Below are positions 6,144 through 55,383 of a stretch of 64,000 nt of DNA, piece by piece. Location of the stretch: NCBI RefSeq assembly GCF_003850565.1, contig NZ_CP027706.1, positions 4,712,001-4,776,000 of the forward strand, in the 5' to 3' direction. The position numbers and the translations under genes were made by a program. Below the pieces are notes generated by a model. That model saw nothing but the letters and a program-made list of their open reading frames with translations, was not told where the DNA came from and did not search any database. The stretch is from Pseudomonas sessilinigenes (GTDB taxonomy: Bacteria > Pseudomonadota > Gammaproteobacteria > Pseudomonadales > Pseudomonadaceae). Each line of letters begins with the position of its first letter. Position 1 is the first letter of the stretch.

Positions 6144-6353
6144 GGCGATCCCTTGGACGAAGAATGAAGCGGGCATTCTACAGGGCCGCGGCCGGCACAA
6201 AAGCGACATGAGCGCGCGGGCCGCAAGTGGCTCCGGGGCACGCTGGATAACCGGCAGATAACAGCCCGATGACAATTCGCCCGGGTGAGCCTGCCCGGCG
6301 CTCAACCGGACTATCATCAGGCCGAGGTTTTCCACTACATCGCAGGAGGCTCC

Positions 6354-7250
6354 ATGGGCGCAGGACACAGTCACGGGCAGGTACGGGCCGGGCACGAACG
6401 CAAATTGTGGATGGCCCTGGGGCTGACCGGCAGTTTCATGATCGCCGAGGTCATCGGTGCCTTCGTCACCGGCAGCCTGGCGTTGTTGTCGGATGCTGCG
6501 CACATGCTCACCGATACCCTGGCCCTGGCGATTTCCCTGGTGGCGATCCAGGTCGCCAAGCGTCCGGCGGATCGCAAGCGCACCTTCGGCTATGCCCGTT
6601 TCGAGATCCTTGCCGCGGCATTCAATGCCCTGCTGCTGTTCGTGGTGGCCTTCTACATCCTGTTCGAGGCCTGGCAACGCCTGCAGGCGCCCCCGGAGAT
6701 CCAGTCCACGGGAATGCTGGTGATCGCGGTGCTGGGCTTGATCGTCAACCTGATCTCCATGGGCCTCCTGGCTTCCGGCAGCAGCGAGAGCCTCAACGTC
6801 AAGGGGGCCTACCTGGAGGTGTGGAGCGACATGCTCGGCTCGCTCGGGGTGATCCTCGCGGCGTTGGTGATCATGTTCACCGGCTGGGGTTGGGTCGATT
6901 CACTGGTGGCGGCGGCCATTGGCCTGTGGGTGCTGCCACGGACCTGGACCCTGCTCAAGGAGAGTACCAACGTACTGTTGCAGGGCGTGCCGGACGGAGT
7001 CGATATCGACCAGGTGGAGCAGGGCATCCGTGGCGTGCCAGGGGTCAGCGAGGTGCATGACCTGCACATCTGGGCCCTGACCAGTGGCAAGAATGTACTC
7101 AGTGCCCATCTCGTAGCGCAGCTGGACAGCTGCGATGAGCAGGTGATCCTGGCCCAGGTCACCGAGCTGGTACAGGAGCGCTTCGCAATTGCCCACGTTA
7201 CCTTGCAGGTGGAACAGGCCGGATTCCATGAGCAGGAACACGATCACTGA
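6354..7250 (+). CDS. czcD: Cation diffusion facilitator, CzcD-type
   Basis: This 298-residue CDF-family metal/proton antiporter exports Zn, Cd or Co from cytoplasm to periplasm. It has a His-bearing N-terminus (MGAGHSHG), six hydrophobic helices, the helix-2 metal site SDAAHMLTD and a helix-5 site with E-VWSD where many family members have His-x3-Asp. The C-terminal cytoplasmic domain ends in an acidic His-rich tail (HEQEHDH). A GCAGGAGG ribosome site precedes the ATG at 6354. It is convergent with the metal response regulator gene and close to czcCBA, so all probably serve one resistance function. Confidence 0.88.
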   Translation: MGAGHSHGQVRAGHERKLWMALGLTGSFMIAEVIGAFVTGSLALLSDAAHMLTDTLALAISLVAIQVAKRPADRKRTFGYARFEILAAAFNALLLFVVAFYILFEAWQRLQAPPEIQSTGMLVIAVLGLIVNLISMGLLASGSSESLNVKGAYLEVWSDMLGSLGVILAALVIMFTGWGWVDSLVAAAIGLWVLPRTWTLLKESTNVLLQGVPDGVDIDQVEQGIRGVPGVSEVHDLHIWALTSGKNVLSAHLVAQLDSCDEQVILAQVTELVQERFAIAHVTLQVEQAGFHEQEHDH

Positions 7251-7268
7251 GCACCGGTGGGCTGTTGT

Positions 7269-7943
7269 TCAGTCACGCTCCTCGAGCACGTAGCCGACCC
7301 CGCGCAAGGTATGGATCAGCTTGCGCTCGAAGGGATCGTCGATCTTGGCCCGCAAGCGGCGGATCGAAACTTCCACCACATTGGTGTCGCAGTCGAAGTT
7401 CATGTCCCAGACAAAGGAAATGATCTGGGTCCGTGACAGCACCACGCCGCTCTGGCGCATCAGCAGGTGCAGCAGGGCGAATTCCTTGGTTGTCAGGTCG
7501 ATGCGCTGCTTGCCGCGAAAGGCCCGGTGCCGGCCCTGGTCCAGCTCCAGGTCGGCGACCCGCAGCACATCTGGCACTGGCGACTGCTCGCTGCGGCGCA
7601 TCAGGGTCCGGACCCTGGCCAGCAACTCGGGAAAAGCGAACGGCTTGACCAGGTAGTCGTCGGCCCCCAGGTCCAGCCCCCTGATCTTGTCTGCCAGCCG
7701 GCCTTGGGCCGTGAGCATCATGACTCGGGTATTGCTGTATTGGCGGATCTGGCCGAGCACGCCCCAGCCATCGATCTGCGGCAGGTTGACGTCGAGGATC
7801 ACCAGGTCGTAGGCATGTTGGCGACTCAGGTACAGCCCATCGGCGCCACTGTTGGCGCAATCCACCACATAACCACTTTCCGTCAATCCCTGTTGCAGAT
7901 AGTCGGCAGTCTTGAGTTCGTCTTCGATAACCAGGATACGCAT
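7269..7943 (-). CDS. czcR: Heavy-metal response regulator (CzcR/CopR type)
   Basis: A 224-residue OmpR/PhoB-family response regulator. The receiver domain carries the acidic pocket at the start (VIEDE), the phosphoacceptor Asp in [15 protein letters not shown] and the conserved Lys in [15 protein letters not shown] winged-helix DNA-binding domain follows and ends with [16 protein letters not shown], the standard C-terminus of CzcR/CopR/CusR regulators. No sensor kinase gene is adjacent: the downstream neighbour is the convergent CDF gene, and upstream is divergent czcC. It probably controls czcCBA through the box at 8135-8150. Whether it answers to Zn/Cd or Cu is not decided by sequence. Confidence 0.85.
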
Positions 7944-51414: not shown

Positions 51415-52347
51415 TCAAGCGTCTGCGGGGGTAAACCACTCGCGGCGCTTGGTGAAGGCCTGTTGAATCAGCTCCACCAGGACCCTCACCTCAGGGCGTG
51501 CTGCGGCGTGGGCGTGGGTGCAGAGCCAGGCGTATTGCTGGAGGGGGGAGTCGAACAACTGCGGCAAAGCAATGAGGGCCTTGTCCACTTGAGCGATGTA
51601 GTCGGGCAGCAGGCCAACGCAGGCGCTGTTCCTGATCAGCTCCAGGGCCAGGTGTGGGTCGCCGGTCTGCGCGATGCCGCTGGCGCGACGGCGTATCAGG
51701 CGGTTCCAGGGTTCCAGGGCAGGCACGCAGTAGTGGCTACTGAGCTGGACCAGCATGTAGTCATCCAACTGCTCCGGGCGCCTGGGCAGGGCCGACTTGG
51801 GTACATAACGCTTGGCAACGTGGGCCGAATACTGGATTGGCGCCAGGCAGATGGGCAGGGTAGTGGCGAAGCCGGGGTCAGGTCGCGGGCTTCCCGGATC
51901 GGCCAGCCATAGCAGGATGTCGGCCTTGGCCGAAGGTGTTCCGTGCAGTGGGATCAACTCTATCCGAGAGGTGGCATTACGACGCAGGAAGGCGATCAGG
52001 TCCCTTGCAAGAATATCTCGCAGCAATATATCCGCCACGGCAATGACTACGCCGGCCTGGCAGGTAGAGTCGACCTTGGCCGGCAACGACTGCTCCTGGC
52101 GCCTGGAGAGGTTTTTTTGCAGGCGTTTACCTATCAGGGTCAGGCTCAGTTTGTTGTCCTGGTAAAGGAACAACGGCGTGCCAATGAGTTGTTCGAGTAC
52201 CAAAAGCTTCTTGCGCAGCGCCGCCGCACTGATGTTCAGGCTACGTGCTGCTTGCTTGAACGATGCGCAGCGTGCACTGATGAGAAAGCATTGAGCCGAG
52301 AGAGCATCGATCGACTGCATGTCGACTTGGGGTATTTCAGCTGGCAT
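51415..52347 (-). CDS. LysR-family regulator of an accessory region
   Basis: A 310-residue LysR-like regulator with a divergent N-terminus. The HTH has FKQAARSLNISAAALRKKLL and VLEQLIGTPLFLYQDNKLSL instead of the usual LSQPAVSRQI pattern. The effector half contains DILARDLIAFLRRNATSRIE. It is transcribed away from the radical SAM gene on the other side of the 486-bp gap, so it may or may not regulate that gene. Its own ligand is unknown. Confidence 0.78.
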   Translation of the reverse strand: MPAEIPQVDMQSIDALSAQCFLISARCASFKQAARSLNISAAALRKKLLVLEQLIGTPLFLYQDNKLSLTLIGKRLQKNLSRRQEQSLPAKVDSTCQAGVVIAVADILLRDILARDLIAFLRRNATSRIELIPLHGTPSAKADILLWLADPGSPRPDPGFATTLPICLAPIQYSAHVAKRYVPKSALPRRPEQLDDYMLVQLSSHYCVPALEPWNRLIRRRASGIAQTGDPHLALELIRNSACVGLLPDYIAQVDKALIALPQLFDSPLQQYAWLCTHAHAAARPEVRVLVELIQQAFTKRREWFTPADA

Positions 52348-52833
52348 GCACAGGCCCTAGCCGTCTTGGTACTGGTGGCAGGTCGTGCTTATCGGCGGCT
52401 TCATGGCCGGCTCCTCGCAGGTGTTCGTACGAGGATACGTAACGCTGCCTTTCAGCAGCATCGCGGGAAAATTACTTATCTGTCATGTCGTGCAGGGAGG
52501 GGCTGTCCGGTTGTAGGAAAGTGTCGGAGCAGTGTTTTCCTGCCTGACCATTCATAACGGGGCATTAGCATGTTTGCCCGACATCATTGACCTTCATCAT
52601 TAAGCTGCGAAGAACAATGCAGACAAGCCTGCAAAGCGCCTGGAAGCCGAGGGGGCTCATGGAGCTGGATCGATGCCACCTGGCATAATTGGCAAGCGCA
52701 GATATCAAGGCTGTTCGGACCTGTTCTCGTCGCAAATAAATAACATGACCTTAGAGAGTGGTTTGTATCTAATACAAACCAAACCACCATAAGAAAAATA
52801 CAAACCGTATTAGCATAGTGAAGGACTATCACA
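52348..52833. other. AT-rich intergenic region upstream of the radical SAM gene
   Basis: This 486-bp stretch shifts from typical GC content to AT-rich towards the right. It holds the operator-like repeats at 52760-52806. A 23-codon frame at 52617-52688 has no clear ribosome site and is not called. Nothing else is recognised. Confidence 0.5.
52760..52806 (+). promoter_or_regulatory. Operator-like palindrome and direct repeat before the radical SAM gene
   Basis: GGTTTGTAT-CTA-ATACAAACC (52760-52780) is a perfect 9-bp inverted repeat with a 3-base spacer. The ATACAAACC half is repeated at 52798-52806, 26 bases further on. The set lies 28-74 bases before the ATG at 52834, where a repressor or activator would sit. 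No other copy was noticed in this window. Confidence 0.6.
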
Positions 52834-53982
52834 ATGCATATGTTCATAGATATTGTTGGGGCCTGTAATTTAAGTTGCCCTTCATGCCCCATGGGAAACT
52901 CCGAGAACAATAACTTCAAAAAATCCATGCCCATGGAGATGTTTAATGAAATAGTTAAAAAGGCCAAGTCAGAGGGTGTCAGTTCAATTCACCTCTACAA
53001 CTGGACCGAGCCCTTGGTTCACCCGCGCATTGGTGAGTTCATTGAAATAATAAACTCAGCAGGGATAAGCAGTGGGATTAGCACCAATTTAAATATTTCA
53101 AAGAATATGGAGCAGGCATTAAAAGCCGAACCTTCATTCTTTCGCATTTCATTATCTGGTTTTTACCAAGAAACTTACGAGCTTGGGCATGTTGGTGGCA
53201 ACATTGAAGTTGTCAAGGAAAACATGCTGAAGCTGCATGAAATCAAAAAGCAGTACAATCTTAATACGCTAATCGAAGTCTACTATCATCGCTATCTAGA
53301 CAACCTGGAAGAAGAAGCGTTGATGCGTGAGTTCAGTGAGCGCCTGGGTTTCACATTCAGTACGGGTTATTCGGTGATGATGCCACTGGAGAAAACCCTC
53401 GCGATCATTGAACGCGACTCATCTGTCACCGATGCAGATCGTGAAACCCTTAAAAGACTGGCATTACCGCCATACGATGATCTAGTTAACCTGGTTAAAC
53501 ACTATCCCAAGCATGCGTGCTCTCTAAAAGACAACATGCTGGTGCTGGACTGCAATGGAAATACCGTCCTATGCTGCTCAGTATTTAACCAGTCCGAGTA
53601 CTCCGTTGGTAAGTACCTGGAGCTTCCTCTGGAGCAGTTGAGCGGTCTTAAGTCCACTCAAGCCAACTGTGCAGACATGTGCAACCGTTGCACAAAAAAT
53701 GGTCTGCACTCTTACGCTACCGGGGCCAACCAAGGACCGATGGAGCGGCATGCCATCAATCGAATCATCAACTTCCAGCGCCTTAATGTTCTAGGTCTTC
53801 CGATTGATAGTGAGGAACTTGGGCGACAGGAAAACGAGGTTAGTGCAGAGAATTTCAATGAGCTCCAGTACCTGCAATGTAACCATGATGTGAATGCCGC
53901 AATCGCCAAAGGAGTTTTCTCTAGCGGCTATCAGCACTACATCCTTTACGGTCGATTTGAGAATAGGACTGGGGCAAGCTGA
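52834..53982 (+). CDS. Radical SAM/SPASM protein of unknown substrate
   Basis: A 382-residue radical SAM enzyme. The 4Fe-4S site is CNLSCPSC (Cys11, Cys15, Cys18) very near the N-terminus, so no leader-binding domain precedes it. A SPASM-type auxiliary cluster region follows with Cys229, Cys240, Cys247/248, Cys279, Cys283 and Cys286. Residues 346-378 (YLQCNHDVNAAIAKGVFSSG, then HYILYGRFENR) resemble the NPDV...HY..G..EGR segments seen at the ends of glycosyltransferases and surface proteins. The gene is AT-rich with many AAA/AAT codons, unlike its neighbours, which suggests acquisition by transfer. No partner enzyme is adjacent. Confidence 0.85.
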   Translation: MHMFIDIVGACNLSCPSCPMGNSENNNFKKSMPMEMFNEIVKKAKSEGVSSIHLYNWTEPLVHPRIGEFIEIINSAGISSGISTNLNISKNMEQALKAEPSFFRISLSGFYQETYELGHVGGNIEVVKENMLKLHEIKKQYNLNTLIEVYYHRYLDNLEEEALMREFSERLGFTFSTGYSVMMPLEKTLAIIERDSSVTDADRETLKRLALPPYDDLVNLVKHYPKHACSLKDNMLVLDCNGNTVLCCSVFNQSEYSVGKYLELPLEQLSGLKSTQANCADMCNRCTKNGLHSYATGANQGPMERHAINRIINFQRLNVLGLPIDSEELGRQENEVSAENFNELQYLQCNHDVNAAIAKGVFSSGYQHYILYGRFENRTGAS

Positions 53983-54012
53983 TTCTTGGTAAAAAGTATC
54001 TGTTCTCTCGAG

Positions 54013-54055
54013 GCCCTAAGGCACGACTGATGCAGTCGTGCCTTAGGGCTTTTTT
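54013..54055 (+). terminator. Very long-stem intrinsic terminator of the radical SAM gene
   Basis: Arms of 17 bp (54013-54029 with 54033-54049) are perfectly complementary, with a 3-base loop and six T. It lies 31 bases after the stop codon, closing a single-gene transcript. Confidence 0.93.
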
Positions 54056-54119
54056 GATCGACATTATTTTTAAAGGAGGCGTGGAGGCGGTTTATAGTTG
54101 CAGGAGGTGGGTAGTAAAA

Positions 54120-54206
54120 ATGCTCAAGCGCTGTATCTTTACCTTGAAAAATACCCGATGCACAAAAGGGCCGATAAACATTAACTGGATGGGGCCCGCA
54201 GAATGA
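54120..54206 (+). CDS. Possible 28-residue peptide downstream of the radical SAM gene
   Basis: ATG at 54120 opens a 29-codon frame to TGA at 54204-54206. The product begins MLKRCIFTLKNTRCTKGPIN and has two Cys and a basic N-terminus. An AGGAGG site lies about 12 bases ahead, slightly far. The frame ends at the edge of the ychF terminator. It is the only reading of this kind in the 300-bp gap 53983-54282 and may be chance. Confidence 0.25.
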   Translation: MLKRCIFTLKNTRCTKGPININWMGPAE

Positions 54207-54241
54207 AAAAACCCCTTGGGGAATATCTCCTCAAGGGGTTT
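54205..54241 (-). terminator. Intrinsic terminator of ychF
   Basis: AAACCCCTTG and CAAGGGGTTT form a 10-bp stem with a further inner pairing; on the minus strand T residues follow. It lies about 42 bases after the ychF stop codon. Confidence 0.85.
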
Positions 54242-54282
54242 GTTTGGCATCTATCAGGATCCTTGAGGATCCATCTTCATGC

Positions 54283-55383
54283 TTAAACGTTGAAGCGGAA
54301 GTGCATCACGTCACCGTCCTTGACGATGTACTCCTTGCCTTCCAGGCGCCATTTACCGGCTTCCTTGGCACCGCCTTCACCCTTGAACTGGATGAAGTCG
54401 TCATAGGCCACCACTTCGGCGCGGATAAAGCCCTTTTCGAAGTCGGTGTGGATCACGCCCGCCGCTTGCGGTGCAGTGGCGCCGACGCGAACGGTCCAGG
54501 CCCGCACTTCCTGCACGCCGGCCGTGAAGTAGGTCTGCAGGTTCAGCAGTTCGTAGCCTGCGCGGATTACGCGATTCAGGCCAGGCTCTTCCAGGCCCAG
54601 GGCCTCGAGGAACATGTCCTTTTCTTCGCCTTCTTCCAGTTCGGCGATCTCGGCTTCGATCTTGTTGCAGACCGGCACTACGACCGCGCCTTCTTCCTCG
54701 GCGATGGCCTTGACCACGTCCAGGTGCGGGTTGTTCTCGAAGCCATCCTCGGCCACGTTGGCGATGTACATCACCGGCTTGCTAGTGAGCAGGTGGAAGC
54801 CACGAATCACGGCCTTTTCGTCGTCAGCCATGTTTTTCATCAGGCTGCGAGCCGGCTTGCCTTCGGTGAAGTGCGGGATCAGCTTTTCGAGGATGGCTTT
54901 CTGCGCCAGGGCGTCCTTGTCGCCACCCTTGGCGTTGCGTGCAACTTTCTGCAGTTGCTTCTCGCAGCTGTCGAGGTCAGCGAAGATCAGTTCCAGGTCG
55001 ATGATCTCGATGTCGCGCTTGGGGTCGACGCTGTTGGAAACGTGGATCACGTTCTCGTCTTCGAAGCAGCGCACCACGTGGGCGATGGCATCGGTCTCGC
55101 GGATGTTGGCGAGGAATTTGTTGCCCAGGCCTTCACCCTTGGATGCACCGGCTACCAGGCCGGCGATGTCGACGAACTCCATGGTGGTCGGCAGTACGCG
55201 GTTCGGCTTGACGATCTCGGCCAGGGCGTCGAGGCGCTGGTCGGGCATCGGCACGATGCCACTGTTGGGCTCGATGGTGCAGAAGGGGAAGTTCTCTGCC
55301 GCGATACCGGACTTGGTCAGGGCGTTGAACAGGGTGGACTTGCCGACGTTGGGCAGGCCGACGATGCCGCAATTGAATCCCAT
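54283..55383 (-). CDS. ychF: Redox-regulated ATPase YchF
   Basis: A 366-residue Obg/YchF-family P-loop protein. The Walker A is [18 protein letters not shown], the G4 motif is CNKIE (NKxE, which favours ATP over GTP), and the C-terminal TGS-like domain includes [18 protein letters not shown]. YchF associates with ribosomes and influences stress responses. It follows pth with a 22-base gap on the same strand, the conserved pth-ychF order. Confidence 0.95.

Follow-up and report, generated by a model that had tools for sequence, protein, structure and literature searches.

A twitch-type radical SAM gene, probably mobile cargo, in an acquired islet beside ychF of Pseudomonas sessilinigenes

The DNA analysed in this study is a stretch of 64,000 nt from Pseudomonas sessilinigenes (contig NZ_CP027706.1, positions 4,712,001 to 4,776,000), referred to below as the window. 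It contains a gene for a radical S-adenosylmethionine (rSAM) enzyme, which stands alone in an AT-rich islet between a gene for a LysR-type regulator and a GTPase gene that we take to be ychF. The gene is probably mobile cargo and belongs to the moron (lysogenic-conversion) type as defined in PMC7067206. The more complete reading, in which a moron stranded without its phage acts on a sugar of the cell surface, is put forward tentatively. Analysis of the sequences shows insertion, the existence of prophage-borne relatives, the lack of shared partner genes, purifying selection and a twitch-type set of cysteines.

The insertion is apparent from a comparison with related genomes. A set of 398 Pseudomonas genomes, including that of P. 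sessilinigenes, was searched with the ychF-pth stretch. The closest match was G293 (95 % identity), and seven of the best matches (G293, G272, G354, G061, G325, G377 and G361) were compared. In G293 and G272 (loci L128 and L133, respectively), the match on the left is contiguous to positions 52487 and 52490 of the window and resumes at 54287 and 54283, and these loci carry 144 and 184 bp where the islet stands in the window. This empty site in two relatives indicates that, between the LysR-type gene and ychF, approximately 1.8 kb was acquired or exchanged. The rSAM gene was missing from all seven of the relatives searched. The remaining five had no match to the LysR-type gene at this position, and the genes flanking ychF here were different; in G354 (L129, 1524–15400), matches to DpdE-, DruE- and Fic-like defence profiles were situated on the islet side. 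The 3′ side of ychF looks to be a variable site and a candidate hotspot for defence genes and insertions.

Some other observations were made at this site. The G354 ORF adjoining ychF resembles an integrase, as judged by eye only. For the LysR-type gene of the window, no listed match exceeded 49 % identity at E ≤ 1e–60 in 94 other genomes, a set that did not include G293 and G272, which carry the gene in synteny. Site-specific integration was considered and rejected: no direct repeat joins the edges of the islet (repeats of ≥12 nt, 52300–54300), and no tRNA gene was found at those edges.

An earlier note on this DNA, made from the sequence alone, had described a single rSAM gene in an AT-rich islet and had recommended G+C and codon-adaptation profiles as a check. 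Those profiles reveal a clear dip at the gene (45 % G+C as compared with 63 %). The G+C content of the rSAM gene is 0.453, versus 0.632 in the rest of the window with the islet excluded, and when 1149-nt windows were moved along the DNA in steps of 100 nt, the minimum (0.443; mean 0.627, sd 0.042) fell at the islet. The codon adaptation value is 0.41, the lowest of the genes measured, versus 0.51–0.79 in 17 other window genes, which served both as the comparison set and as the reference set for codon adaptation; the corresponding GC3 values are 0.52 and 0.62–0.88.

Homologues of the gene were identified on prophage contigs. In L082 (80 % identity), the gene has a phage ORF (phrog_12397) on one side and an endolysin gene on the other, followed by tail-fibre and baseplate genes. 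In L024 (73 %), it is flanked by a GH19 endolysin gene and by that for a terminase small subunit, and the stretch also carries portal and tail-fibre genes. The same protein as that of L024 is encoded at the contig end in L081, where a different endolysin gene and one for an Rz spanin precede it. L024 and L081 have the gene and its upstream flank in common (1.64 kb at 97.8 %), though their lysis genes are unlike, as if the shared block moved on its own. Location inside prophages beside the phage’s own genes, by which a moron family is recognized, is thus seen in L024, L081 and L082; the window copy lies outside any recognized prophage. The prophage copies L024, L081 and L082, the islet copy L040 and the window copy have G+C contents of 0.44–0.47. 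Together with the empty site in two syntenic relatives, the absence of the gene from all seven relatives and the foreign composition, these prophage contigs leave the earlier note’s suggestion that the gene was acquired well supported.

Among viral contigs, a homologue was found in three scans on L081 and L082 only (L136 is the contig of L082). No match to the rSAM protein was observed in 50,697 phage records; 72,556 plasmid records yielded two distant matches (30–36 %), and the islet DNA matched nothing in the plasmids. L028, whose copy has a G+C content of 0.54, was rejected as a further prophage context, as a tRNA-Leu gene lies between the gene and the integrase. A 14-nt overlap at the L082 insertion, seen in the BLAST coordinates, was not confirmed as a duplication by eye. 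Adjoining the endolysin gene of L024 is an acyltransferase-3 gene (6310–7590), a possible second lysogenic-conversion gene; the acyltransferase-3 family is known for O-antigen acetylation.

It was of interest to determine whether the gene has partners. Small ORFs in the 700-nt flanks of eight copies were common only to L024 and L082, which share phage DNA, and to copies of a clade with a fixed chromosomal locus described below. With that phage DNA set aside, no small ORF is common to unlike contexts, so that the orphan status claimed earlier holds. Consistent partner genes were not found, and the earlier idea of a dedicated system is not supported. As far as its flanks indicate, the gene seems to need no partner linked to it.

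The protein is a radical SAM enzyme by Pfam (PF04055, 43.8 bits, cutoff 29.5). Its reading frame is unbroken, and its CxxxCxxC motif comprises C11, C15 and C18. No domain precedes the core; the earlier note had pointed out that a peptide-recognition domain is lacking there. The claim of a full SPASM-type set of cysteines, in contrast, proved to be overstated. The seven-cysteine SPASM pattern given in PMC6231123 is CX9-15GX4C, a gap, CX2CX5CX3C, a gap and a final C. In the window protein, CX12GX4C (C229-G242-C247) is present and is followed by just CX3CX2C (C279-C283-C286), and the match to Pfam SPASM (PF13186) scores 11.6 bits, under the cutoff of 21.5. In 32 aligned rows, C229, C247, C248, C283 and C286 are invariant and C279 occurs in 30, and C349, the would-be last SPASM cysteine, occurs in one. 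The domain thus appears to be a truncated SPASM with cysteines for one auxiliary cluster; CX12GX4C plus CX2C matches the twitch plan set out in PMC6231123 and PMC9012708.

None of 23 listed NCBIfam models reached its cutoff, the best being TIGR04317 (62.4 of 380 bits). A structure model built from 32 sequences had a mean pLDDT of 88.0 and a pTM of 0.84, with residues 12–23 (the cluster loop) below 50. The best PDB matches in Foldseek were BlsE and then DesII. VIA-align scores were 17.7 for SuiB, 17.7 for anSME, 17.4 for MoaA, 17.1 for SkfB, 17.1 for BlsE, 16.8 for DesII, 16.2 for a viperin-like enzyme and 15.8 for BtrN. The fold alone thus does not favour a particular substrate.

That the substrate is a protein or peptide of the host, encoded elsewhere in the chromosome, with an enzyme of the epimerase, cross-linker or sulfatase-maturase type, is unlikely, even though many SPASM and twitch enzymes act on peptides (PMC9012708 and PMC6231123) and the top structural matches include SuiB, anSME and SkfB. 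The motif begins at residue 11, with no domain ahead of the core, and the listed NCBIfam peptide-maturase models score far under cutoff. The signature of a maturase of ribosomally synthesized and post-translationally modified peptides was not observed either, as the eight copies have no small ORF in common across unlike contexts, shared phage DNA aside; no search for a precursor was made in the rest of the genome. One distant relative, L069, lies near asparagine-synthase-like and PqqD-like small ORFs, identified by eye, which could point to a peptide product at that locus. An improbable alternative is a viperin-like anti-phage or superinfection-exclusion enzyme acting on nucleotides. The match to pVip is weak (22 bits) and covers the core only (residues 7–150 of 382), and the window protein has in addition the auxiliary-cluster cysteines and an extra C-terminal motif.

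Surface-sugar modification is the best guess for the chemistry, and is held as tentatively as the reading of which it forms a part. It draws on distant homology and on the C-terminal motif, not on the neighbours of the window gene. The motif, which is unnamed and was overlooked by the earlier note, was detected by regular expression in 116 of 120 listed homologues (353 were found in all), and its region has no Pfam match at E ≤ 1. A word-based search with the motif alone returned only the query. A profile search did better: in 274 genomes of the class, the motif was found in seven (L138–L144) besides that of P. sessilinigenes. The motif ORF matches DUF1796 in L138 and methyltransferases in L140 and L141, and it is without a Pfam match in L144; glycosyltransferase genes adjoin the motif ORFs of L141 and L143. 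In a polysaccharide cluster on a Methylocystis plasmid, the motif is carried by a WsaF/GT2 glycosyltransferase of 1788 aa, with an rSAM relative lacking the motif nearby. On this sequence evidence, the motif is fused to the rSAM domain in the window protein and separate from it in Methylocystis.

The neighbourhoods of distant relatives were surveyed at 19 loci, namely 17 genome loci (33–47 % identity) and two plasmids (30–36 %), by phmmer with 11 query proteins. Surface-glycan or flagellin genes were found near 13 of the 19. Six of those 13 loci were themselves sources of query sequences; of the 13 loci from which no query was taken, seven were positive. Such genes were not found at L068, L072 (just 3 kb long), L075 and L077–L079, nor at any of 13 close Pseudomonas loci, nor in the window from 42 to 64 kb. 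On a plasmid (L084, Deltaproteobacteria Smac51), six rSAM relatives occur with genes for a DegT aminotransferase, an asparagine synthase and a methyltransferase, in what appears to be an unusual biosynthetic cluster.

The distribution of close homologues was also examined. Of the 398 Pseudomonas genomes, 22 had a match at E ≤ 0.001; 17 of these are strong (P. sessilinigenes itself plus 16 at 70–75 % identity), and five are weak and partial. None of the 16 close homologues in the 397 other genomes is at the window site. Flanks were classified for 40 Pseudomonas genome rows taken from two overlapping sets, so that some genomes occur more than once (L028 and L063, for example, are one genome). 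In 36 rows, which form a clade of P. koreensis type, the gene occupies a single locus and its neighbours are of the LysR, agmatine-deiminase or AraC type; in the other four (L024, L028, L040 and L063) it is elsewhere. The sole paralogue in the P. sessilinigenes genome is weak (23 %) and lies in what by eye is an apparent biosynthetic cluster (L153, 9199–19787; C1, ~1.985 Mb).

It must be counted against the reading as mobile cargo that the P. koreensis-type clade holds a homologue of approximately 70–75 % identity at one ordinary, fixed chromosomal locus. The copies there have G+C contents of 0.51–0.56, as if the gene had adapted to its host. The earlier note had named occurrence at the same locus in most P. 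fluorescens-group genomes as a result that would tell against acquisition; no such pattern was seen at the window site, and the fixed locus of the P. koreensis-type clade is situated elsewhere. In a phylogenetic tree, for which the program warned of long outgroup branches (P0104 and P0109 included), the window copy falls in a five-row clade (support 96/92) with the prophage copy L082, the islet copy L040, P0002 and P0006, and the 12 fixed-locus copies used stand apart from it (99/99).

The fixed locus also suggests a part in routine metabolism, perhaps in a pathway close to polyamine genes: genes for LysR- and AraC-type regulators adjoin it, as do, in many cases, agmatine-deiminase-type, CN-hydrolase and solute-binding genes. 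Such a role is very improbable. A polyamine function is weakened by the 11 of 36 fixed-locus rows (L027, L031, L032, L035, L043, L046, L048–L050, L052 and L053) in which nothing matches the 3 kb stretch downstream, with which that operon begins; the prophage and islet rows match none of these flanks, and none of these neighbours adjoins the window copy.

Ratios of non-synonymous to synonymous substitution (dN/dS) were 0.054 for the window copy versus L040 and 0.039 versus L082, with dS above 2 and hence saturated; the value for L040 versus L082 was 0.138, and other pairs giving a value were ≤0.20. Purifying selection is, by these estimates, strong, and the gene is under selection. It is scarcely credible, therefore, that the gene is a decaying remnant without function, as the missing partners and atypical composition might suggest, given the intact frame, the conserved core and auxiliary cysteines and dN/dS values of 0.04–0.14 among the three nearest copies.

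The islet also contains a putative control region and a terminator (Table 1), so that the palindromic repeats and the 17-bp-stem terminator reported earlier are both present. The palindrome core pattern occurs once in the window, versus 0.01 expected, and with ≤2 mismatches it is found at one place in the 6.9-Mb genome. Positions 52797–52817 are a direct copy (76 %) of 52771–52791, that is, a partial second copy of the palindrome 26 bp further on. The terminator has a folding energy of –37.3 kcal/mol (z –10.1); a simple terminator scan did not list it. A sigma-70 promoter scan gave two hits versus 3.0 expected, neither upstream of the rSAM gene, and nothing in 52000–54700 exceeded the Rfam gathering score. 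De novo motif analysis of the 220 nt upstream of nine copies identified an element resembling CCGTCAAAWWANNAAC at –82 to –108 nt from the gene in the other copies. At width 16 its information was 16.9 bits, versus ≤12.9 in 15 base-composition shuffles, a difference whose true weight is lower because four of the nine sequences are related fixed-locus copies. As a fixed pattern with ≤3 substitutions, the element was found in 18 of 20 copies and missed in the window and L024, which have degenerate versions. Its occurrence upstream of L028, L040, L082 and the fixed-locus copies, at a near-constant distance, indicates that it travels with the gene.

Table 1. Features of the islet and its flanks (window coordinates)
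Feature	Position	Strand	Basis or remarks
LysR-type regulator gene (left flank)	51415-52347	-	Pfam HTH_1 and LysR_substrate; syntenic in L128 and L133, both without the islet
Inserted islet, ~1.8 kb	52488-54286		Alignment to L128 and L133; left match ends at 52487 or 52490 and resumes at ychF (54287 or 54283)
GTCGCAAATAAATAAC, degenerate version of the upstream element	52729-52744	+	De novo motif comparison
Perfect palindrome GGTTTGTATCTAATACAAACC (GGTTTGTAT-CTA-ATACAAACC), putative operator-like element or leader hairpin	52760-52780		Upstream of the gene
Second inverted repeat, AATAC-AAACC-GTATT	52797-52811		Repeat analysis
rSAM gene (twitch-type enzyme)	52834-53982	+	Intact ORF, 382 aa
Region coding for C-terminal motif FDExxYLxxNxDVxxAVxxGxFxSGYxHYxxxGxxExR	53833-53973	+	Alignments; residues ~334-380
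Intrinsic terminator	54013-54055	+	Perfect 17-bp stem, 3-nt loop, T6
ychF-type GTPase gene (right flank)	54283-55383	-	ychF-pth query matched 398/398 Pseudomonas genomes

In the mechanism that we infer, which extends to prophage origin, sugar substrate, type of reaction and benefit, a lysogenic-conversion gene, equipped with a control region and terminator of its own, would have lost its phage and stayed behind in the chromosome next to ychF. A [4Fe-4S] cluster bound by CxxxCxxC would cleave S-adenosylmethionine, and the resulting 5′-deoxyadenosyl radical would abstract a hydrogen atom from the substrate. The auxiliary cluster (C229, C247/C248, C283 and C286) probably accepts an electron, and the outcome would be a two-electron oxidation or a similar rearrangement, as in BtrN. 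The substrate would most likely be a sugar of the host’s surface-glycan pathway, on which the lone enzyme would act in trans, and the host surface would be altered, for example at a receptor of competing phages. A bolder and rather doubtful version holds that a family of prophage-borne rSAM enzymes brings about lysogenic conversion through radical chemistry, in which a single partnerless enzyme rewrites a surface-glycan sugar and thereby shifts phage range, with the C-terminal motif docking it to the glycan-assembly machinery.

Serotype-converting phage genes are known, and are mostly acetylases and glucosyl transferases. If the proposal is correct, a lone radical SAM enzyme would represent new chemistry in lysogenic conversion. 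Because only one gene would have to be deleted before surface glycans are compared, the substrate of an uncharacterized rSAM family could be reached quickly, and the C-terminal motif, common to methyltransferases and a glycosyltransferase, provides a testable functional clue.

Morons, twitch enzymes and phage radical SAM genes are each known; the combination was not met in the literature searched, where titles and the openings of abstracts gave no radical SAM moron and no account of the family of the window enzyme. In common with morons, the family shows a lone gene next to those for lysis (on three prophage contigs), a block common to prophages with unlike lysis genes and an atypical G+C content; it differs in that the window copy has no surrounding phage. 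Radical SAM genes are known in phages, as the many viral models among the radical SAM matches attest. A T4-like phage with 12 of them is described in PMC5332604, and two further papers concern prophages that integrate into a radical SAM gene. These known genes differ in not having been presented as stand-alone prophage genes of the window enzyme’s family. The rSAM maturase of tungsten-cofactor oxidoreductases (TIGR04317) shares the radical SAM core, but its score is far under cutoff and no tungsten oxidoreductase gene was noticed nearby by eye. BtrN, BlsE and DesII share the fold, and the cysteine set of the window protein fits one auxiliary cluster, as in BtrN; identities in structural alignments, however, are 12–19 %, and the window protein has the extra C-terminal motif. 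The rSAM proteins of the surface-glycan/flagellin clusters L064, L065 and L083 lack that motif and are clustered with glycan genes, whereas the window gene is an orphan, but they are 35–47 % identical to the window protein over approximately 290 residues, and in L064 and L065 the CPSCP and NWTEP motifs are visible.
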